Shown: positions 9,525 through 28,830 of the stretch, in pieces
How positions within the stretch are numbered: position 1 is the stretch's first letter
Layout of the letters: each line of letters opens with the position of its first letter
Notes under the pieces: generated by a model
What the model was told of the DNA's origin: nothing
Databases searched by the model: none
Seen by the model: only the letters and a program-made list of their open reading frames with translations
Assembly: GCA_029879645.1 (NCBI GenBank)
Contig: JAOUPX010000023.1
Coordinates: 1-32,564, forward strand
DNA length: 32,564 nt
DNA from: Nitrospinota bacterium
GTDB taxonomy: Bacteria; Nitrospinota; Nitrospinia; Nitrospinales; Nitrospinaceae
Reading direction: 5' to 3'
Translations under genes and position numbers: made by a program

Positions 9525-10265
9525 TCAATAGTCGGTGATTTCGGCGCCGGGGATGCGGCGGGGAGTTTTACTGAAATCTAGAGGATGGTCGGTGCCGGGG
9601 AGGATGGTGCCGTCGGGCGAGTACGGGCCGATTTTGCTCCAGGTGCCGTATTGTGATTCGCTCACGTATTCGATCTTTATAATCGCCTTGGGATTTTTGT
9701 AGCCATATTTGAACGGCACGATCACGCGCAGGGGGAAGCCATGCTCATCGGACAAGGGTGCGCCATCCATTTCAGTGACCAACAGGGTGCGGGGATGGTT
9801 CAGGTCTTCCAGTGACAGATGCTCGGTATAAACGTCACCGCAGTGAAACACCACGCCGGTGACTTCCGGTTTGGGCGGGCAGAGTTTCATCAACTCGGAG
9901 AAATGAAAGCCAGTCCACTCGGCTTTAGCCGACCAGCACTCGACGCATTTCAGACGCGAGATTTGCGTGCGCGTGGGCAGGTGTTTCAATTGATCGAGTG
10001 TGAAGGTTTGGGAATTCTCGCACAGGCCGCCGACAGCCAGCGACCAGTCCTCGGCCTTGATGCGTCGGAGCGGTTTCCAGTAATTGATGTAGAACTGTTT
10101 GAAAGGTCCAGCGCGGGTTTTACCGACGAAGTCGGTGCCCGTGAAATAATCCGCCTCCGCCCGCGCCGCGCCCGGCCGCGTCCACCAGCCTTGTACGAAG
10201 GCCGCGCAGAAAGTGAGTACGCGGACCAGAAATGATCGTCTGCTTATTCCAAAGAACGTACGCAT
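9525..10265 (-). CDS. Tat-exported molybdopterin oxidoreductase, MsrP/YedY-like
   Basis: The track start at 10403 is rejected for the ATG at 10263-10265, which gives 246 residues and a twin-arginine signal (ISRRSFLVRVLTFCAAF, then a cut near ARAEA). The mature part is a sulfite-oxidase-fold molybdopterin domain. C107 in SRLKCVECWSAKAEW is the expected molybdenum ligand, and the typical YGYKNPKAIIKIEYV and GTWSKIGPYSPDG segments follow. MsrP proteins reduce methionine sulfoxide on periplasmic proteins, taking electrons from the haem membrane protein MsrQ. No MsrQ gene is in the window. The start overlaps the end of the FGE-like gene by 22 bases, implying coupled translation. It could also be a related sulfoxide or other periplasmic oxidoreductase. 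Confidence 0.85.
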   Translation of the reverse strand: MRTFFGISRRSFLVRVLTFCAAFVQGWWTRPGAARAEADYFTGTDFVGKTRAGPFKQFYINYWKPLRRIKAEDWSLAVGGLCENSQTFTLDQLKHLPTRTQISRLKCVECWSAKAEWTGFHFSELMKLCPPKPEVTGVVFHCGDVYTEHLSLEDLNHPRTLLVTEMDGAPLSDEHGFPLRVIVPFKYGYKNPKAIIKIEYVSESQYGTWSKIGPYSPDGTILPGTDHPLDFSKTPRRIPGAEITDY

Positions 10266-10897
10266 CGGAATCCCAGAAAGCTGAGCCGTTCCCCCGGCGG
10301 GATCGCGGTCTTTTCGTAAGCCTTGCTGTAGTCGAAATCGAGGTGCAGGTTCCACAAACCGCCGCGAATGATTTTGCTTTCGCCCTGGGCGTCGCCGGTC
10401 CATTCCCAGACCGATCCTGCCATATCGTGGATGCCGTAGGATGACACATCCTGCTTATTCGAGCCTGAATTTTTTTTAACCACACCGGAGTAAAACGGGT
10501 GCGGCCGTTTTCTCGGCTTGTAGTCGCCCCATGGATAGTTAAAGCCGTTTTCACCCCGCGCCGCTTTTTCCCATTCCGGATCCGTGGGCAGGCGGCCTCC
10601 GATTTTTGCGCAGTACTCACTGGCCTGGTGCCAGGTGACTTTCGTCACCGGATGGCGAGCCGCGCCTTTGCGGAATCGATGATTGGGAAACTGCTGTTGA
10701 AATTCCTCGTTGGTGACTTCGTTCTGGTCGATCAGGAAAGGTTTGAGAAACAAGCGCCGTTCGGGACCGTGGGGCGGCTTACTTCCCTTTCCCATGGTGA
10801 ACGGTCCCTCCGGAATCATCACCATCGAAGCGGCGGCGTTTATTGGAAGGAACAGGTACAACAGTATGGAAATGTAAACTATCCGATTAAGAATCAT
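10244..10897 (-). CDS. Exported FGE-sulfatase (SUMF1)-domain protein
   Basis: This 217-residue protein has an N-terminal signal peptide (MILNRIVYISILLYLFLPINAAAS) and then a complete formylglycine-generating-enzyme-like domain. Family landmarks are MVMIPEGPFTMG, IDQNEVTNEEF, GGRLPTDPEWEKAARG, YPWGD, GIHDMAGSVWEWTGD, IIRGGLW and LSFLGFRCVRS. The two cysteines that bind copper and form the active site in true FGE lie just after the RGGS element; here that segment (RGGLWNLHLDFDYSK) has none, so enzymatic formylglycine formation is unlikely. It probably binds a partner or ligand. Its 3' end overlaps the MsrP-like gene by 22 bases, suggesting joint periplasmic work. The ribosome-binding site is poor. 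Confidence 0.88.
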   Translation of the reverse strand: MILNRIVYISILLYLFLPINAAASMVMIPEGPFTMGKGSKPPHGPERRLFLKPFLIDQNEVTNEEFQQQFPNHRFRKGAARHPVTKVTWHQASEYCAKIGGRLPTDPEWEKAARGENGFNYPWGDYKPRKRPHPFYSGVVKKNSGSNKQDVSSYGIHDMAGSVWEWTGDAQGESKIIRGGLWNLHLDFDYSKAYEKTAIPPGERLSFLGFRCVRSLE

Positions 10898-16384: not shown

Positions 16385-16538
16385 TTGGTAATTTTATTGG
16401 CTATCCCTACATTTATAGTAAGGAGAGGTTTGTAATTTGAAATTTAAAGTGAGTTGTCACTTAAATAGATAAAAAATATTTCTCGATTCAAGATGGATCG
16501 GGGAGTGAAAATTTTAATGTAAGTTTTTGGAGAGAATC

Positions 16539-19500
16539 ATGCACATTCACCGCACATTCACCCAGGGTTTGGACGACGCATACAGCGGCCTGACATTTGT
16601 AGAACGGATTTCGAAAATCATCAATGCCGATGGTTCGGTGGTTTCCGAGATTGATAAGGTTGGTGTGCCCAGTACGTGGTCCCAGGTGGCGGTGGATATC
16701 ATGGCCCAGAAATATTTCCGCAAAGCCGGGGTGCCGGCCCGCACCAAAAAGCGCTATGAGCATGATATTCCCGAATGGCTGTGTCCCTCCGAGCCGGATC
16801 TGGAAGCGCTTTCGCAATTGCCTGAAGAGGAGCGATACGGACGCGAAACCGATTCGCGTCAGGTGTTTCGCCGTCTGGCAGGGTGCTGGACGTATTGGGG
16901 CTGGAAAGAGGGATGCTTCAGCAACGAAGAAGCCGCCCGTTCATATTATGACGATATGCGTTACATGCTGGCCCGCCAGTATGCCGCCCCCAATTCCCCG
17001 CAATGGTTCAACACAGGGTTGAACTGGGCTTACGGCATTGAAGGACCGGCGCAGGGCCACTACTTCACTAATCCGGAAACCGGGCTTCCCGAAAAATCCA
17101 AATCCGCTTACGAGCGTCCGCAGCCACATGCCTGCTTCATTCTTTCAGTGAATGATGACTTGGTGAACGAAGGCGGCATCATGGACCTGTGGAACCAGGA
17201 AGCGCGTCTGTTCAAATACGGATCCGGTACCGGCACCAACTTTTCGAAACTGCGTGGATCGGGAGAGTCTCTTTCCGGCGGCGGCCAGTCGTCCGGCCTG
17301 ATGAGTTTTCTGAAGATCGGTGACCGCGCGGCGGGCGCCATCAAATCCGGAGGCACCACACGCCGCGCCGCCAAGATGGTCACTCTCGATATCGACCATC
17401 CCGACATCGAAGAATTCATCGAATGGAAAGTGAAAGAAGAGCGCAAAGTCGCCGCCCTGGCCGTGGGAAGCAAATTGTGCCGCAAGCATCTTAAGAACGT
17501 TTTACAGTCTTGCTGGGACTGGGACGACGAAGAGAACCGATTTAATATTCACTCCAACAAGAAACTGCGCAAAGCCGTACGCGAAGCGGTGCGCGATTTC
17601 ATTCCTGAAAACTACCTGTACCGCATTATCCAGCTGGGAGAACAGGGTGTGCGCGATATCGTGTTCGAGGAATACGACACCAACTGGACATCGGAGGCCT
17701 ACCAAACCGTTTCGGGGCAGAATTCCAACAACTCGGTGCGCCTGACCAACGATTTTCTGAAAGCGGTCGAAAACGACGGGGACTGGAACCTTACGTCCCG
17801 CACCAGCGGTAAGGCGGTGAAAACCGTAAAGGCCCGCGACTTGTGGGAGAAGGTCAACGAATCTTCCTGGTCCTCCGCCGATCCCGGTGTGCAGTTCGAC
17901 ACCACGGTCAACGAGTGGCATACCTGTCCGGAAGGCGGACGCATCAATGCATCGAATCCCTGTTCGGAATACATGTTTCTGGATGATACGGCGTGTAACC
18001 TGGCCTCCATCAACCTGATCAAATTTTATGATGAAGAGAGCGGGCAATTCGAGGTGGCGCGGTTTATCGATGCCTGCCGGTTGTGGACCCTGACTCTCGA
18101 AATCTCAGTAGCCATGGCGCAGTTTCCGAATAAGTCCATCGCCCAGAAAAGTTTTGAGTACCGCACCCTGGGTCTCGGCTATGCCAATCTCGGAACCCTG
18201 TTGATGGTTCAGGGTATTGCCTACGATTCGAAAGAAGCGTTGGCGATTACCGGTGCCATTACCGCGTTGATGACCGGCACCTCCTACGCCATGTCCGCTG
18301 AAATGGCCGCGGAACTTGGGCCGTTTAAACATTATGAAGCGAATAAGAAGCACATGTTGCGGGTGATCCGCAATCACCGCCGTGCGGCCTACAATTGTGA
18401 TTCGTATGAGTACGAAGGCCTCACCATTTTCCCGCAGGGCATCAATGCTGCGTATTGTCCCGAATACCTGCGGACGGCGGCAGTTGAATCGTGGGATCAT
18501 GCGCTGGAATTGGGCGTGCGCTACGGTTATCGCAACGCGCAGACCACTTGCATCGCTCCAACCGGCACCATCGGTTTGCTGATGGATTGCGACACCACCG
18601 GTATCGAACCCGACTTTGCCCTGGTCAAGTATAAAAAACTGGCGGGCGGCGGGTACTTCAAGATAATCAATCAGTCGGTGCCCATGGCGCTTAAGAGACT
18701 GGGTTACGCGGAACCGGAGATTCACGATATCGTCAGTTACTGTGTGGGTTCAGGCAGTCTGGTTGCCTCGCCGATCATCAACCACAAATCGCTGAAGGCC
18801 AAGGGCTTCACGGACGAAATTCTGGCTCAGGTGGAAAAGGAATTGCCGAAAGCGTTCGACATCACCTTTGCTTTCAACAAACACGTTCTGGGTGAAGCAT
18901 TTTGTCGGGAAATGCTCGGCATTTCCGATGAAATGTTGAATGATTTCAGCTTCAATCTGTTGAAGCACCTGGGTTTCACCGATGAAGATATCTGCAAGGC
19001 CAATGATGCCGTGTGCGGCACCATGACCATCGAAGGGGCGCCTCATCTCAAGGAAGAGCATTATTCCGTTTTCGACTGCGCCAATAAATGCGGCAAGTAC
19101 GGCAAGCGCTTTATCCGCCATGAAGCACACATCCATAAAATGGCGGCGGCTCAACCGTTTATCTCCGGGGCGATTTCCAAGACCATCAACATGCCGAACT
19201 CATCCACCGTCAAGGAAGTGGAAACGGCTCACATGATGTCCTGGAAACTGATGCTCAAGGGAACCGCAGTGTATCGGGACGGTTCCAAGCTCAGCCAGCC
19301 GCTCAACAGCGTGGCGGCAGACGACTTCAAGCTGTCCGAGCTTGAGGATGAAGAGGAGCGAACGCCTCTGAAAGTGGCCGAGCAGATGGTACAGGTGATC
19401 AAGAAACGCCATACCCTTCCGCATCGCCGGAAGGGTTACACTCAGAAAGCCGTGGTCGGCGGTCACAAAGTGTATCTGCGCACCGGAGAATACAAGGACG

Positions 19501-20156
19501 GAACGTTGGGTGAAATTTTTATCGACATGCACAAGGAAGGCGCCGCTTACAGAAGCCTGATGAACTGCTTCGCCATTTCCATTTCCCTCGGTCTGCAACA
19601 CGGCGTTCCCCTTGAGGAATTTGTCGACGCCTTCGTCTTTACCCGGTTCGAGCCCAACGGCATCGTTATCGGCAATGACCGAATTTCCATGTCTACTTCG
19701 ACTATTGATTATATTTTCCGGGAGCTTGCCATCAATTACCTGGGCCGGAACGATCTGGCCCAGGTAACTCCTGACGATTTGCGTTCCGACGCGCTTCAGA
19801 AAAATGAAGAAGTGTCATCGGAAGATGATGAGGAAGCAGGCGAAGGCACGATTATCGACTTGGATCTGGGGATTGACGAGGATACTCCGCCCACGGACGC
19901 CCCTCCTCAAACTTCAGAAGCGGATTCGCGCCCGGTTGCCGGTAACGGTAATGGAACCTCTAATGGTGGTAATGTAACGTCGACGGCCATGGGGACACTG
20001 GTTTTAAACCAACGAGGTTTGAAAAACGGATCCGCGCTGGCCAAATTAAAAGGGTATGAGGGTGACCCGTGCGGCGAGTGCGGACAACTCACTCTGGTTC
20101 GAAACGGCACCTGCCTGAAATGTTTGTCCTGCGGTGCAACATCCGGGTGTTCATGA
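16539..20156 (+). CDS. nrdJ: Vitamin B12-dependent (class II) ribonucleoside-diphosphate reductase
   Basis: This adenosylcobalamin-dependent enzyme reduces ribonucleotides to deoxyribonucleotides, with or without oxygen. The ATG at 16539 follows GGAGAG closely; the track start at 16527 is a TTG. The 1205-residue protein is of the long class II type. The catalytic-barrel landmarks are [18 protein letters not shown] near 199, [14 protein letters not shown] near 227, [21 protein letters not shown] from 473, and [21 protein letters not shown]-type domain follows ([22 protein letters not shown]...). After an acidic, Gly/Asn-rich linker comes a C-terminal zinc-ribbon-like tail, [22 protein letters not shown], which should include the cysteines that re-reduce the active site. 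It is a single-gene unit, bounded by the NrdR-controlled promoter and a strong terminator. Confidence 0.97.
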
Positions 20157-20256: not shown

Positions 20257-21258
20257 TTAAAATCCGCTTTCGTTCTGAAGCGGATTTTTTATTGGGGCGT
20301 TGCTTTCGGTCAGCGCCGATTTGGCGCACCGAAAACCGAAGGTGGGATTGCTCAAATTGAAGTTCACCAGATTACGATAGGAGATGGTGGCCATGTGCGG
20401 CGGGCTCCGCCAGCTCCCTCCCTTCACCAGATAGCGAGAGTTTCCCGCCGGTTCCGCCTGCGATTCAGTCAGCGGCGAAAGCGCCACCGTGGTGCTGACC
20501 CATTCCCACACGTTACCGATCATGTCCAAAGCCCCGAGGGGGCTGGCTCCATGGGGAAACGAACCAGAGGGTGCGGCATTGACAAAACCATCCCCGCCGC
20601 CCTGAAGGTTTCCGGACCTCTCCAGAGGTTGATTGCCCCAGGGGAATTTATTTTCCGTGGAGCCGCGGGCGGCAGCTTCCCATTCCGTTTCCGTGGGCAG
20701 GCGTTTCCCTGCCCACTGGCAATATTGTTGCGCCTGGGTCCAGGTGATCCCCATGGCCGGACATTGTGGGCATTCCATGCCATCGGTATAAATCAATTCG
20801 ACATAGTCCGGCTGGAATTGTTTGAATTGAAAAACCGTAATTTCCGTCCGGTCGATAAAAAATTCGCGGAGACTTTTACGGGCAAGCCGGTTGTTTTGCC
20901 CTACCACCAGAGCCGAAACGTTATCTGACGGAACCCAGTAAACCCCGGCAGGAACACGAACCATCACTGATTGATCCTTATGATGAATCACTTCAGGAAG
21001 AGCAAACGTTCTTGGGGTTCTTGGGGGAGAGGGAGATTTGACAGCCGGTCGGCTGTAACGAACCGGGGGGCTGGGTGGGGGTTGTTGCGGAACCGGTTCG
21101 GGAGGAGAAGCGGGAAGGGTTTTCCCAGGTTCATGTGTGGCTTCGGGAAACAGGGTTCCAGGCCGGGTTCTTTTGTGGGCGCGTGTTTGTGGTTCTGGGG
21201 GCGTCGTACAGCCGAAAACGAAAAGAACCGTCAACAGCAGGATTCCCGCAACTCTCAC
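20257..21258 (-). CDS. FGE-sulfatase (SUMF1)-domain lipoprotein
   Basis: A 333-residue protein with a lipoprotein signal (MRVAGILLLTVLFVFGC, C17 as the lipidated residue). A Pro-rich linker of about 70 residues, with runs such as PVPQQPPPSPP, is followed by a formylglycine-generating-enzyme-like domain (MVRVPAGVYWVPSD, IDRTEITVFQFKQF, GKRLPTETEWEAAARG, FPWGN, DMIGNVWEWVS, LVKGGSW, FGFRCAKS). As in the other FGE-like protein of the window, the segment after KGGSW has no catalytic cysteines, so it is probably non-enzymatic. The linker could let the domain reach away from the membrane. The gene overlaps the upstream TPR gene by ATGA and shares its transcript. Confidence 0.88.
   Translation of the reverse strand: MRVAGILLLTVLFVFGCTTPPEPQTRAHKRTRPGTLFPEATHEPGKTLPASPPEPVPQQPPPSPPVRYSRPAVKSPSPPRTPRTFALPEVIHHKDQSVMVRVPAGVYWVPSDNVSALVVGQNNRLARKSLREFFIDRTEITVFQFKQFQPDYVELIYTDGMECPQCPAMGITWTQAQQYCQWAGKRLPTETEWEAAARGSTENKFPWGNQPLERSGNLQGGGDGFVNAAPSGSFPHGASPLGALDMIGNVWEWVSTTVALSPLTESQAEPAGNSRYLVKGGSWRSPPHMATISYRNLVNFNLSNPTFGFRCAKSALTESNAPIKNPLQNESGF
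20259..20290. terminator. Terminator hairpin at the 3' end of the FGE-like lipoprotein gene
   Basis: AAAATCCGCTT and AAGCGGATTTT pair over 11 bases around an 8-base loop. The stem begins inside the last codons of the minus-strand gene, and each side is flanked by T-rich sequence in its own direction, so it may back up nrdJ termination as well. Confidence 0.7.
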
Positions 21259-21677
21259 TGCGATTCTTTCTCCTCTTTCATGTATTGATCCATTTTCTTT
21301 TTCAGTCGGCGGTAGGTTGTGAATTCTTTCTCCGCTTTTTCCTTTTGGCCCATCTGCTCGTAAGTGTATCCCAGGCTGTAATGGGCATCCACGAAGGTGG
21401 GGTCTAATTGAAGTGTCTTTAAGAAAACTTTTTCCGCAAGGTCATACTTCTTGCGGAAATTATGGATGCCGCCCAGTCCGTAATAGCCTTTCGGATTTTT
21501 TGGGTTTTTGTCGATGGCATTCTGGAACGCGCGTTCCGCTCCTTCGTAGTCCTGCTCCTCCACTTTGGACAGCCCTTCCCGGTAGTAATCCTCACTGCTT
21601 TTATCCGAGCATTGCGGTAAAATCAGAACCAGTACGCTGAGTAGGCAGAAGGAAAAGAGAATTCGGATAGGGGGCAC
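21255..21677 (-). CDS. TPR-repeat membrane-anchored or lipoprotein
   Basis: The track ORF starts at 21809, but a GTG at 21675-21677 after AAGGCCTCCC gives a typical export signal (MPPIRILFSFCLLSVLVLILPQC) and a 140-residue product; this start also leaves room for promoters in the divergent gap. The mature part has three TPR units, beginning near SEDYYREGLSKVEEQDY, NPKGYYGLGGIHNFRKKY and FVDAHYSLGYTYEQMGQ, and a basic C-terminal tail. The lipobox-like LPQC is imperfect, so lipidation is uncertain and it may stay anchored by the signal. The stop overlaps the FGE-like lipoprotein start (ATGA), so the two are made together and probably act in the envelope. The start choice is the main doubt. Confidence 0.8.
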   Translation of the reverse strand: MPPIRILFSFCLLSVLVLILPQCSDKSSEDYYREGLSKVEEQDYEGAERAFQNAIDKNPKNPKGYYGLGGIHNFRKKYDLAEKVFLKTLQLDPTFVDAHYSLGYTYEQMGQKEKAEKEFTTYRRLKKKMDQYMKEEKESQ

Positions 21678-21836
21678 GGGAGGCCTTAATGTATATGGTT
21701 TTCCGGAAAGAGAGTCGCCTGGTGGGGCATCCGGATTGTCAAATAGACTATCAAAAATAATAACACCATTATTGGGTTTCCGCCAGAACAACCCCTCCGC
21801 GTGTTCCAACGGATTGGTTAAGGGTGCATCACATAA

Positions 21837-23120
21837 ATGGAATTTAATTTATATTGGATAGCCTTTGGCATCGGAGTGTTGTTGGTTGGCCTGTTGGCGG
21901 TATTGACCGTCAAAGGCTATGGCATTCTGCAGGTGCGATGGCTGAATATCTCTCGCTTGCGTGTTCTGCAGCAACGCGAGTCCACTGCATCTGATCCCAA
22001 AGAGCGGGAGGCTTTGCAGATGGTGATCGGGCGCTGTCAGAGTTTGCGTGCCCGGTGGGTCCTGGGCGAAGCGGATTTGTCCCTGATAGAAAGCACGCGC
22101 AGCCTGGTGCACGACATCGCCGAGGTCTATTATCCTCAGTCCTCCCAGCCACTTGCCGAAGCCCGCATTGATAAAGTCCTCGATGCTTTTCTCGAAATGA
22201 AAACGCATATCGTGCAGTTGACCCGGTTGAAGGGCATACGCGAATGGACCCGTTTTCGCCTGCGTCATCTGGTCTGGCTGTCGGAAGCCTGGGCGCGAAA
22301 AACGCAGTGGGAACAAACACCCACCGTAAAGACCGTGCGCCGCCTCAAAATGGTTCCCATCGTTAAATGGATATATACGGCCTTCCGCTCACTGGATCTG
22401 GTTTTCTGGTCGCTGAAAATGACGGTGTATTTTTTATATGACATCGTGTTTAAAATTTTTCTCATTCGATGGACTCTGCTGGTGGGTGAGACCGCCATCC
22501 GGGTGTACAGCGACCGGGAGCCGGGAGAGGATATTTCCCCGGAAGAACTGTTGGAGGAAATGGATACCCTGCCGGATCAGAAGGAATTTAAAGAGGAGGG
22601 ATTGAGGCCGGATGTGAAGGAACGGGTGGACGCTTCACGCAAAGCCATATTATTTCATCTGGGGGTGATGCGCTGGCCGGCAGCGCGTCAGCGCTACAAT
22701 TTACTGGTGAAGGATATCGCGGGCATCCATCATCCGCAGGCGGATCAACCGTTGTATGAAGCCAGGCTATATGATCTTTTAATCGGTTTTTCGCGGCTCG
22801 CGGAGGATATTGTGAATTTGAAAACCAAACCGGTGATCCATAAAATGCTTCGACTACGTTTGTCCCACCTTCTTAAAGTGAAGGACGCTACGGATTGGGC
22901 GTTGGAAAACCAGCTGGTAGACCTGGCAAGAAAATACAAGCTGGGTACAGCAGTGAAGTATTCAGCCCTCATTTACAAGGCCTTCAAAAAGGGGCATCCG
23001 GGAATTTTATTCAGGGATGTGGCGCTGACGCTCACCCGGGAAGCCGGCAAGCGGTGGGTGCTGGTTTACCTCCACGACAAGATCGCCGTGGAAGCGGACT
23101 GGATTTTCAAGCCGAAATAA
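21837..23120 (+). CDS. Membrane protein made of two 200-residue copies of an unrecognised domain
   Basis: This 427-residue protein has an N-terminal membrane helix (about 7-25) and another hydrophobic stretch near 187-217. It is internally duplicated with an exact 200-residue offset: LVHDIAEVYYPQSSQPLAEAR (90-110) matches LVKDIAGIHHPQADQPLYEAR (290-310), RLRHL (141-145) matches RLSHL (341-345), and IYTAF (179-183) matches IYKAF (379-383). An acidic linker (about 226-260) joins the copies. The second copy has lost the strongly hydrophobic segment of the first. The conserved D-I-A-x5-PQ-x2-QPL-x-EAR block suggests a functional surface. I do not recognise the family. It diverges from the TPR gene and has a weak ribosome-binding site (AAGGG, distant). 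Confidence 0.85.
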   Translation: MEFNLYWIAFGIGVLLVGLLAVLTVKGYGILQVRWLNISRLRVLQQRESTASDPKEREALQMVIGRCQSLRARWVLGEADLSLIESTRSLVHDIAEVYYPQSSQPLAEARIDKVLDAFLEMKTHIVQLTRLKGIREWTRFRLRHLVWLSEAWARKTQWEQTPTVKTVRRLKMVPIVKWIYTAFRSLDLVFWSLKMTVYFLYDIVFKIFLIRWTLLVGETAIRVYSDREPGEDISPEELLEEMDTLPDQKEFKEEGLRPDVKERVDASRKAILFHLGVMRWPAARQRYNLLVKDIAGIHHPQADQPLYEARLYDLLIGFSRLAEDIVNLKTKPVIHKMLRLRLSHLLKVKDATDWALENQLVDLARKYKLGTAVKYSALIYKAFKKGHPGILFRDVALTLTREAGKRWVLVYLHDKIAVEADWIFKPK

Positions 23121-23141: not shown

Positions 23142-24197
23142 TTACCGCTTTGAGGAACTCATTGTTTTTCCCAGGTTAGAAATCTGCGCCACCAATTGAA
23201 TCCTGTCTGACTGCAGGTTCATTCGCTTGTCAATGAGGGTATCGATCTGGACGTTGACGGTTTCAAAGCTTTCATCACCGGGGTATTCGTTCAGCAAGGT
23301 CTGGAAGGCATTGTTGATTTGAAGTTCCACCTTGAAACTGTTATCGAACGACAGGATCAGGGACTGAAAAATTTTCTTGAAGTCCTGAGAAATATTAAAT
23401 TTGAACTTGTTGGTTTCCGCCCAGCTATTTAAAGTATCGGCGCCCTGTTCTACAGCCTTTTTGGAGGAGTCCAGTTCCATGCTGGCAATTTTGACGAACG
23501 ATGCGCCGTCTTCCGGAACGTAGTTGGAAACACCTGTTACTTCGGGAACTTCTATCTCGGCGATCCGCGCCTTGATGAGATAAACCAGACTCTGGTTGGA
23601 ATGAACGATGGATTTGAATAAATGATACGATGGGTTGTTTTGTTCCAGTTGTGCCATCCGAAGTTTTAGCAGGGCGTTTTCACCTTCCAGGGCCCGAATG
23701 ATGGTTCGGCGGGACCGCAAATCGAATTGATTCACCACCGATAAATCCCGGGTCAGGCTGGCCTCAAAGAGATTGTAGGAATCGTCAATCGATTGCCGGA
23801 TCGTCTGGCTGTATTCTTCCAGATAGTTGTTGAATTCATCCACCTGTCCGTTGAACCTCTGTGTTTTAAAGTTGGGCTGGTAGAGAGCGCCCAGCTTTCC
23901 GCTGGCTGATTTGAATTTTTCTTCAATGAGGATTCCCAGTTTACGTTTTCTTTCCAGAGCGTCGGTTTCATTAATGGACTCCATCAATACTGCCTGGCTA
24001 AGGTCGTCGATGGAAGAAGCCTGAGTGAAAATTTCGGTTAATTCGTTATACAGGCCCGTGGAGCCTTCAAGATAGTGGGTATATTCCTGCAGATCATGAA
24101 ATAATTCTGCACTTGGCCTGGGGGCGGCGAAAAGATTATTGCTGAATAAAAGAATGCAGAATATAACGATGCTGACACGGGCATTTCGACGCTTCAT
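23142..24197 (-). CDS. Exported helical hypothetical protein
   Basis: The track ORF begins at 24287; the ATG at 24195-24197 is preferred because it starts a signal peptide (MKRRNARVSIVIFCILLFSNNLFA, cut before APRPS) and has AAGGA upstream. The 351-residue product is predicted almost all helical and Gln/Asn/Glu/Leu-rich. Recurrent segments such as ELFHDLQEYTHYLEG, VDEFNNYLEEYSQTIRQSIDDSYNLFEASL and ALLKLRMAQLEQN suggest long coiled coils in the periplasm. No family is recognised. It converges with the duplicated membrane-protein gene, with only 21 bases between their ends. Confidence 0.75.
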   Translation of the reverse strand: MKRRNARVSIVIFCILLFSNNLFAAPRPSAELFHDLQEYTHYLEGSTGLYNELTEIFTQASSIDDLSQAVLMESINETDALERKRKLGILIEEKFKSASGKLGALYQPNFKTQRFNGQVDEFNNYLEEYSQTIRQSIDDSYNLFEASLTRDLSVVNQFDLRSRRTIIRALEGENALLKLRMAQLEQNNPSYHLFKSIVHSNQSLVYLIKARIAEIEVPEVTGVSNYVPEDGASFVKIASMELDSSKKAVEQGADTLNSWAETNKFKFNISQDFKKIFQSLILSFDNSFKVELQINNAFQTLLNEYPGDESFETVNVQIDTLIDKRMNLQSDRIQLVAQISNLGKTMSSSKR

Positions 24198-24445
24198 AAC
24201 CTGTTTTCCTTGGACGGGGGAAACATCCGGAAGTTTGAATCTTTGAGGACTCTGTGGTCCGGTGCAGGGTGACTTGTATCCAAACAATATTCTGTTTCCC
24301 GTTTTTATTGAACGATTCCATTAGGATAAGTAAGGAGAGAACGCTTGGCAAACATTATTTTGGAATGTAATTGTAAATATGATAGCGTTGGTCGGTAACT
24401 TATTGATATGATGTATGCAGTTTTTTTTGTGGGCAAAAAAAAAGT

Positions 24446-26322: not shown

Positions 26323-28830
26323 ATGCCTAAACAATCCAAATCCAACCGCCACCTTCCGACCATTGTTCCGCCGAGACTTCCCGGTGCGGCACGTCGCTCC
26401 CTGGCCCTGTCTCACCGGGGACTGGACTTCCTGCATAAAAGCGACGGCGGCCAGAACCTGGATGTGGTGGTGCGCCCGGCCAGCGGTCAACTGCCATCCA
26501 TTGAGCGCCGGAACGTGGCCTTCTGGATACGGGAAGCGGAGAGGGGAGAACCACAGGCTCAATACAATGTCGGTGTCATGTTTTTCAAGGCCATCGGGGT
26601 GGACCGGGATTACGAAGAAGCGCACCGATGGTTCCTGAAGTCGGCCAATCAGGGATTCGCCAACAGCCAGGGGTTTCTGGGAATTTTGTACGAACAGGGT
26701 CTGGGCGTTGAGCGGGATATGGAGAAGAGCCTGGAATGGTATACCCGGGCCGCGCGTCAGGGCAATCTGGAGGCACAATATAATCTTGGGCGCATGTACT
26801 ACCTGGGGAATGGAGTGGAAAAAAACTTAAAGGAAGCATTTCGCTGGTTCCGGAAAGTGGCCGAGTGCAACCACGCTCCGGCATTGAATCAACTCGGTGT
26901 CATGTATGAAAAGGGAGAAGGGGTATCTCAGGATATCGAACGGGCCTTGAAATGCTATCGGCAATCCGCGGAACAGGGTAATGAGGAGGCCAAGTACAAC
27001 CTCGGAGATTTGTATGAACGGGGAATAGGCGTCACGAAGGATCAGGATCAGGCGATCTATTGGTTCACCCGGGCGGCGGAAGATGGGTTGGATTTGGCGC
27101 AATATAAACTGGGAACGCTGTTCTACTCTGGAGAAGGAGTAGATGTCAGCCCCGGTAAGGGGCTCTACTGGTTGTGCAAAGCGGGCGAGCAGGGCCACGA
27201 GGAAGCCCAGAAGTTTCTTGAAAAAACCGGAGCCGAAGTAGCTTCCACTCCAGAAGAACTGTTGGAAAAAGGTTTGCATTATTTGCAGATCGGTGATTTT
27301 GAAGAAGCCGCCCAGTGGCTGGAAAAAGCCGCGGACCAGAATCACCCGGAGGCGCAAAATTTAATGGGCACCCTCTACGATTTCGGCAAAGGGGTTCCGC
27401 AGGATTCCGAAATGGCCGGACTCTGGTTTCGAAAAGCGGCCGAGCAGAATCATCCCGAAGCGCAATACAATTTGGCGGTCATGTATTTTTTGGGCGAAGG
27501 TTCACGGCGTCATTATCCCTCGGCGTTTGCCTGGTTTGAAAGAGCCATGAGCCAGAACGTTGATCAGGCCGCCATCTTTCTCGGAATTTTATGTGAAAAC
27601 GGCTTGGGAACGGATAAGGACGAGGCTCAGGCGGTCCATTGGTACCGCCAGGCGGCGGAGCAGGGCGATGGGTTTGGCCAGTATCATCTGGCCCGGATGT
27701 TTTATCACGGTAAGGGTGTGGGACAGGATTTTGAGAAATCTCGGTATTGGTATGAGCGGTCCGCCCGGTCAGGGAATGAATACGGCCAATACAATATGGG
27801 CCGCATGTATTACAACGGTCACGGAGTGGAACAAAACCGCTCCAAAGCTCGAGACTGGTTTCGGAAAGCCGCTGAGCAGGGACACGATTTCGCACAATTT
27901 GCTCTCGGTAAAATGTATCGTCAGGGTGATTTGGGATCTCCCGACAAAGTCAAGGCATTGGAATGGATTGAAAAATCCGCCAGCCAGGGAAATGTCTTCG
28001 CGCAGAACCAACTGGGCAAAATGTATGAAAACGGTGAGGGGTGCGAGCAGGATTATGAAAAAGCGTTTCAGTGGTTTCGCAAGGCGGCGGAGCAGGGATC
28101 GGAGCAGGCACAGGACAATCTCGGTATGATGTATTTTGTCGGAAAGGGGGTGCCGCGAGATTTCGACCAGGCCGCGAAATGGTACCGTCGCGCCTCGGGT
28201 CAAAAATCTTCTCTGGCGGCCAGGAACTCTGCGGAACGGCCTGGTATGAAGCCCTTAAAATCCCCGGAGGAAAACCTCGATTGGTTTCTCAAGCTGGCCA
28301 TCTCCGGAGCGCCGGATGCACAGAACCAGGTGGGAATGATTTATGAATCGGATCAGGGAGTTACCCCCAACCTGGAAGCCAGCCTCCACTGGTACGGAAA
28401 GGCCGCCGAGCAGGGACACGAAGGCGCCCAGTATAATATTGGACGCCTGTTGTTTTATGGATTGGGTACCCAGCAGGATCGCGACCGGGGACTGGAATGG
28501 ATTCGTAAGTCAGCGGCGCAGGGATACGCCGATGCCCAGTTGTTTCTCGGGATATCTTATGAAGAAGGTAAAGTGGTTCCCCAGTGCTTTGCCGACGCCG
28601 CAGAATGGTATAGAAAAGCCGCCGAGCAGGGGAAAGAAGTCGCCCAGTACCATCTGGCCAATCTCTATAAAAAAGGCCTGGGAGTGGAAAAAAATATCGA
28701 TGAGGCCTTGAAGTGGTTCCGCCGGGCGGCGGAGCGCGAATTTCTTCCCGCCGTCGGGTCCCTCAAGAAAATCATTCACCAGCAATCCATGTTTCCCCAT
28801 TCGAAGGACAGCACTTCTCCGCAAAACTGA
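26323..28830 (+). CDS. Large Sel1-like repeat protein
   Basis: An 835-residue protein with a basic, Pro-containing N-terminus (about 60 residues, no signal peptide) followed by about 18-20 Sel1-like repeats of 36 residues, of the form W[FY]RKAAEQGxxxAQYNLGxMYxxGxGVxxDxxxAxx. Two units are degenerate, one near residue 300 (EKTGAEVASTPEELLEKG) and one near 630 (RNSAERPGMKPLKSPEEN), and they may split the solenoid into three segments. Such proteins are scaffolds for protein complexes. It lies 8 bases after the J-domain-like gene and has only a poor ribosome-binding site, so translation may depend on that of the gene before. The repeats also show at the DNA level as 108-base periodicity. The partner is unknown. 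Confidence 0.93.
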   Translation: MPKQSKSNRHLPTIVPPRLPGAARRSLALSHRGLDFLHKSDGGQNLDVVVRPASGQLPSIERRNVAFWIREAERGEPQAQYNVGVMFFKAIGVDRDYEEAHRWFLKSANQGFANSQGFLGILYEQGLGVERDMEKSLEWYTRAARQGNLEAQYNLGRMYYLGNGVEKNLKEAFRWFRKVAECNHAPALNQLGVMYEKGEGVSQDIERALKCYRQSAEQGNEEAKYNLGDLYERGIGVTKDQDQAIYWFTRAAEDGLDLAQYKLGTLFYSGEGVDVSPGKGLYWLCKAGEQGHEEAQKFLEKTGAEVASTPEELLEKGLHYLQIGDFEEAAQWLEKAADQNHPEAQNLMGTLYDFGKGVPQDSEMAGLWFRKAAEQNHPEAQYNLAVMYFLGEGSRRHYPSAFAWFERAMSQNVDQAAIFLGILCENGLGTDKDEAQAVHWYRQAAEQGDGFGQYHLARMFYHGKGVGQDFEKSRYWYERSARSGNEYGQYNMGRMYYNGHGVEQNRSKARDWFRKAAEQGHDFAQFALGKMYRQGDLGSPDKVKALEWIEKSASQGNVFAQNQLGKMYENGEGCEQDYEKAFQWFRKAAEQGSEQAQDNLGMMYFVGKGVPRDFDQAAKWYRRASGQKSSLAARNSAERPGMKPLKSPEENLDWFLKLAISGAPDAQNQVGMIYESDQGVTPNLEASLHWYGKAAEQGHEGAQYNIGRLLFYGLGTQQDRDRGLEWIRKSAAQGYADAQLFLGISYEEGKVVPQCFADAAEWYRKAAEQGKEVAQYHLANLYKKGLGVEKNIDEALKWFRRAAEREFLPAVGSLKKIIHQQSMFPHSKDSTSPQN

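Follow-up and report, generated by a model that had tools for sequence, protein, structure and literature searches.

YcjF, of the DUF697 family (PF05128), is an inner-membrane helical protein of a GTPase-linked family. The protein studied here is likewise predicted to be helical and to sit in the inner membrane, but it differs in having no DUF697 match, and no protein of its 3.2-Mb source genome matched PF05128 above the cut-off. TIGR01620 was touched by only two of its 45 homologs, at E 0.11 or weaker. YcjF of E. coli was tried as a relative and rejected, as it scored 0.6 bits against the domain described below. The gene lies at 21837..23120 on the forward strand of a contig of 32,564 nucleotides (the whole stretch analysed, hereafter the window) from a marine Nitrospinaceae bacterium of the Nitrospinales, an order with marine nitrite oxidisers among its members. 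No RNA family or tRNA was found in the window.

The ORF starts with ATG and encodes 427 residues, and its architecture, an anchor followed by two units, is well supported. One N-terminal transmembrane helix (residues 7-25; 21855..21911) has a Kyte-Doolittle (KD) value of 2.55 and a basic flank after it. The first unit spans residues about 54-225 (21996..22511), as delimited by comparison of the halves and by predicted helices, and ends in a hydrophobic but charge-bearing C-terminal helix (residues 186-224; 22392..22508; KD 1.61). An acidic linker (residues 225-257; 22509..22607), with a mean net charge of -8.7 over the 45 homologs, leads to the second unit (residues about 258-425; 22608..23111). 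All these parts are on the forward strand. The unit comprises about 170 residues, is predicted to be all-helical, and occurs as two tandem copies, each with the signature IAxxYHPxSxxPLxEA near its start and (G)xEAxxxY at its end; one membrane helix and two such copies define the two-copy family.

The initial annotation had proposed an exact 200-residue repeat that arose by whole-domain duplication, and both statements hold. Residues 90-151 and 290-351 are identical at 25 of 62 positions at an offset of exactly 200, while the best window of 62 residues at any other offset has 13 identities. Three blocks share this offset (LVxDIAx4PQxxQPLxEAR, IVxL...RxRLxHL and IYxAF), and the gaps between the second and the third cancel out. 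When the halves of the protein were compared with each other, BLASTP gave E = 2e-13, and the local alignment score was 128, whereas 1000 shuffles reached at most 64. As family profiles of 45 aligned members, the halves matched in hhalign with a probability of 98.8 and E 5.9e-17 over 131 columns. The repeat is indeed present in residues 80-185 and 280-385, to which it had been assigned, but it is larger than this and takes in the preceding helix and the long C-terminal helix.

The full-length AlphaFold2 model (pLDDT 76, pTM 0.73) is consistent with this extent. Its predicted helices in copy 1 (54-72, 83-98, 105-108, 111-129, 134-137, 142-159, 162-169 and 173-225) pair one to one with those in copy 2 (258-272, 280-298, 305-308, 311-330, 332-337, 342-366, 372-382 and 389-424), though residues 349-393 are of low confidence. 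Copy 2 modelled alone with a deeper alignment (residues 250-427) reached a pLDDT of 86.7. Foldseek searches with the full-length and domain models found no similar solved structure, none falling below E 0.001.

The most conserved part of the repeat had been described as unlike any nameable family. With regard to curated collections this was right: the protein and its family have no significant match in Pfam, NCBIfam, PADLOC or the PDB sequences, none of the PADLOC anti-phage defence models match it, and nothing relevant on the domain or its EcsC and GTPase combinations was found in the literature. Searches of plasmids and phages by tblastn found no copy either; two of these searches and one viral-contig scan used a GTPase-like consensus solely as a probe, on which none of the claims depends. 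Two weak BLAST matches were rejected, as they were read from their sequences as a ScpA-like ORF (G011:C213) and an M3-peptidase-like ORF (G081:C150). On the other hand, the domain turned out to be shared with GTPase, EcsC and PH-like proteins, so it is not confined to this protein.

A profile of the halves gave matches in another phylum and was rebuilt with these before 395 genomes of that phylum were counted. The rebuilt profile was positive in 33 of the 395. Single-copy versions, for which a search in other genomes had been suggested, were found in 29 of them (ORFs of 224-454 aa), built as an N-terminal membrane segment, a linker helix, the domain and a short tail. Two-copy ORFs of 423-468 aa occurred in the other four genomes (L115/L128, L116/L129, L200 and L201). 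RpoB of this phylum is 54-59% identical to that of E. coli, and our guess is that the phylum is Desulfobacterota-like. In one locus (L129:4646-9706), the neighbours of the two-copy relative are MoxR-like and DUF58-like genes, both identified by reading the sequence, and a transglutaminase-like gene that resembles the transglutaminase gene found in the window (E 1.2e-5).

The last profile, built on the whole unit (A4) and run over a broad genome sample, located the unit in further phyla inside larger proteins. It was matched at E 9e-48 and 2e-42 in proteins of 625 and 629 aa (L190 and L191), at about 2e-28 in proteins of 554 and 599 aa (L192 and L193), at 1.5e-8 and 1e-6 in proteins of 647 and 659 aa (L195 and L196), and at 0.005 in a protein of 527 aa (L198). 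Pfam identified EcsC in L192 and L193 (1e-36 and 1e-34) and MMR_HSR1 and Dynamin_N in L195, L196 and L198 (E to 1e-15), and the C-terminus of L190 and L191 has a weak bPH_3 match (2e-4) just under the cut-off. The EcsC part of L192 is also matched by the PADLOC candidate models PDC-S29 and PDC-S30. Because the GTPase match was the weakest, the N-termini of the GTPases were tested against decoys: their hhalign scores against the unit were 50.7, 40.5 and 37.3 (probability 82-95%), while 220 unrelated protein pieces scored at most 20.9 and reversed sequences 12-15. The domain was found in none of the 291 genomes of the phylum of G080, so that the profile does not match helical proteins at random, and no copy was detected in the small phyla to which G099 and G089 belong.

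These relationships could be illusory, if the family were isolated and its likeness to the GTPase, EcsC and PH-like proteins reflected a shared helical composition instead of common descent. Identities are indeed low (about 15-20%), the GTPase forms are matched over only a part of the unit, and L117, L118, L194 and L198 sit on very long branches. However, the matches of the PH-like (E down to 9e-48) and EcsC forms (about 2e-28) extend over the whole unit, the decoy and reversed controls fall far below the GTPase scores, the domain follows a membrane helix at the N-terminus in all forms, and the YHPxSxxP and xEAxxxY motifs are common to them. An isolated family is largely contradicted by this evidence and appears highly improbable. 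Judged from profiles, motifs and position, membrane proteins of other phyla that contain a GTPase, EcsC or a PH-like part carry this unit as their predicted juxtamembrane domain.

Maximum-likelihood analysis of 80 units placed copy 1 of the Nitrospinota proteins together with copy 1 of those from the other phylum (support 99/93) and likewise joined their second copies (99/97), which indicates one duplication older than the separation of the two-copy proteins of the two phyla. When the tree is midpoint-rooted, copy 1 shares its side with the single-copy, PH-like, EcsC and GTPase forms; given the arbitrary root and the long branches of some rows, the position of the GTPase rows is uncertain. Only four of the 395 genomes of the other phylum have two-copy forms, which might speak for separate duplications in each phylum, but the grouping of the copies by position argues against it, as does the hydrophobicity of the last helix, which follows the same pattern in both phyla (1.67 for first and 0.87 for second copies in the other phylum); we hold separate duplications to be very unlikely. 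As read from the tree, the two-copy form is an ancient paralog line that goes back to a single old duplication, and copy 2 has diverged more than copy 1.

Of 64 Nitrospinales genomes, many of which are incomplete, 50 have the gene, the window's own included; the 13 genomes from elsewhere in the class have none. The nearest named relatives, 79-80% identical, come from Nitrospinaceae MAGs and from one deposited under the name Nitrospirae SZUA-226. Members of genera g4 and g14 (L078, L079, L083 and others) have a copy 1 whose second half is about 30 residues shorter, with the last helix kept. Divergently transcribed from the two-copy gene are a TPR lipoprotein-like gene (21258..21809, reverse strand), with TPR Pfam matches and a signal followed by an LPQC lipobox as read from the sequence, and an FGE/sulfatase-modifying-factor lipoprotein-like gene (20260..21258, reverse strand; PF03781, E 9e-41; FGC lipobox). 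This divergent pair adjoins the two-copy gene in 17 of 20 extended loci and lies about 4 kb from it in L074. The FGE-type gene travels with the TPR gene across loci, and the trio is kept where other neighbours differ (L075-L077). The two-copy gene is probably co-regulated with the two lipoprotein-like genes as one envelope-related module in Nitrospinales. The link is specific to this lineage, since the two-copy relatives in the other phylum have no such pair beside them.

Several other features of the region were recorded. Just 3' of the two-copy gene is a gene for a 381-aa protein without Pfam match (23145-24287, reverse strand), which among the 20 extended loci occurs only in the same genus (L064). 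A class II (B12) ribonucleotide reductase of 1209 aa with a TSCPD domain (16527-20153, forward strand) adjoins a transglutaminase-core gene, an order kept in many relatives. A second FGE-type gene stands beside a molybdopterin-binding oxidoreductase gene (PF00174) at 10247-10897 and 9528-10403 on the reverse strand, and this pair recurs in L079 and L071. An 835-aa protein with 18 Sel1 repeats (26323-28827, forward strand) comes immediately after a 259-aa protein whose DnaJ-like match is below threshold, and the two stay paired in many relatives.

The only strong membrane helix of the two-copy protein, residues 7-25, lies outside the repeat. The segment after it is basic (mean net +3.1), which suggests an N-out/C-in orientation and a cytoplasmic location of the rest, as the GTPase fusions require. 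The initial annotation had further stated that the first copy keeps a hydrophobic segment lost from the second. The difference is real, as the last helix has a mean maximum 19-residue KD value of 1.55 in copy 1 against 0.62 in copy 2, but a loss in copy 2 does not follow: single-copy relatives are intermediate (mean 1.02), so a gain of hydrophobicity in copy 1 is no less likely. The two copies may plausibly have taken on divergent roles.

If the hydrophobic helix of copy 1 were a true second span, copy 2 would be periplasmic and could work directly with the TPR and FGE-like lipoproteins. This is the main rival to a cytoplasmic protein: the helix reaches KD values of up to 1.9, the basic segment before it and the very acidic linker after it fit an in-to-out insertion, and the lipoprotein neighbours are conserved. 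However, charged residues are conserved inside the helix (D187, K194, D202, K/R206, R/Q211 and E218), which argues against a spanning anchor. Moreover, the GTPase forms, whose GTPase must remain in the cytoplasm, show no hydrophobic character in the corresponding helix (0.25-0.87), and copy 2 is strongly basic (net +9.9). A periplasmic copy 2 is thus unlikely in our estimation. The last helix of copy 1 fits an amphipathic or packing helix better than a span, and it probably does not serve as a second anchor.

As to function, we infer a role for the two-copy protein from sequence comparison. Elsewhere the domain is found once, after a membrane segment and before a GTPase, EcsC, a weak PH-like C-terminus or a short tail only. 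It may lie in the cytoplasm against the inner membrane and couple the anchor to what follows, by self-association or membrane contact; oligomerisation or binding by the domain is our proposal. Two-copy proteins would have their second, more soluble copy in place of the effector domain, so that a scaffold or oligomerisation hub is the most likely role. Copy 1 would be kept at the membrane by the anchor and its own hydrophobic last helix, and copy 2 would extend on the acidic linker to bind a putative partner. An inner-membrane scaffold or adaptor with two cytoplasmic juxtamembrane domains and no effector is, on balance, the reading that we favour as somewhat probable. Against it, the neighbours are predicted periplasmic lipoproteins, which are awkward for a purely cytoplasmic partner role.

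Since the domain is common to membrane GTPases, the two-copy protein might also offer its domain copies in trans and in this way act as partner or regulator to a GTPase of that domain class. The same profile found no GTPase form in the 64 Nitrospinales genomes searched, which makes such a partnership quite unlikely. A broader form of the scaffold reading can be put forward only tentatively, as possible rather than probable: the unit may be a cytoplasmic juxtamembrane domain, widespread but uncatalogued, which builds membrane-bound assemblies for dynamin-like or Era-like GTPases, EcsC and PH-like proteins, and the Nitrospinales protein may be a doubled, effector-less scaffold of the same system, coupled to the periplasmic TPR/FGE lipoprotein pair.

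The analysis defines a juxtamembrane domain missing from Pfam and NCBIfam, and this one shared part joins otherwise separate groups of bacterial membrane proteins, namely those with GTPase, EcsC and PH-like domains. The small, effector-less two-copy protein could allow the function of the domain to be studied alone, and a three-gene envelope module conserved across Nitrospinales has been marked.

Compared with known systems, the window protein is a two-copy, effector-less variant of a domain absent from the curated libraries searched. The two-copy proteins of the other phylum have the same anchor, the same copy order and copies that are orthologous in the tree, but unlike those of Nitrospinales they have no TPR/FGE lipoprotein neighbours. 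Like the window protein, the membrane GTPases (L195, L196 and L198) have one or more N-terminal membrane helices and, after these, the same domain; theirs is a single copy combined with a P-loop GTPase, whereas the window protein has the homologous juxtamembrane domain twice and no P-loop GTPase domain, and neither it nor any of its 45 homologs matches MMR_HSR1 or Dynamin_N. The EcsC proteins (PF12787; L192 and L193) share the anchor and the domain, but end in EcsC, a domain not found in the window protein or the 45 homologs, where the window protein has its second copy. Finally, the proteins with a bacterial-PH-like C-terminus (L190 and L191) also begin with the same anchor and domain and, unlike the window protein, continue from a single copy into about 390 further residues with a PH-like end.
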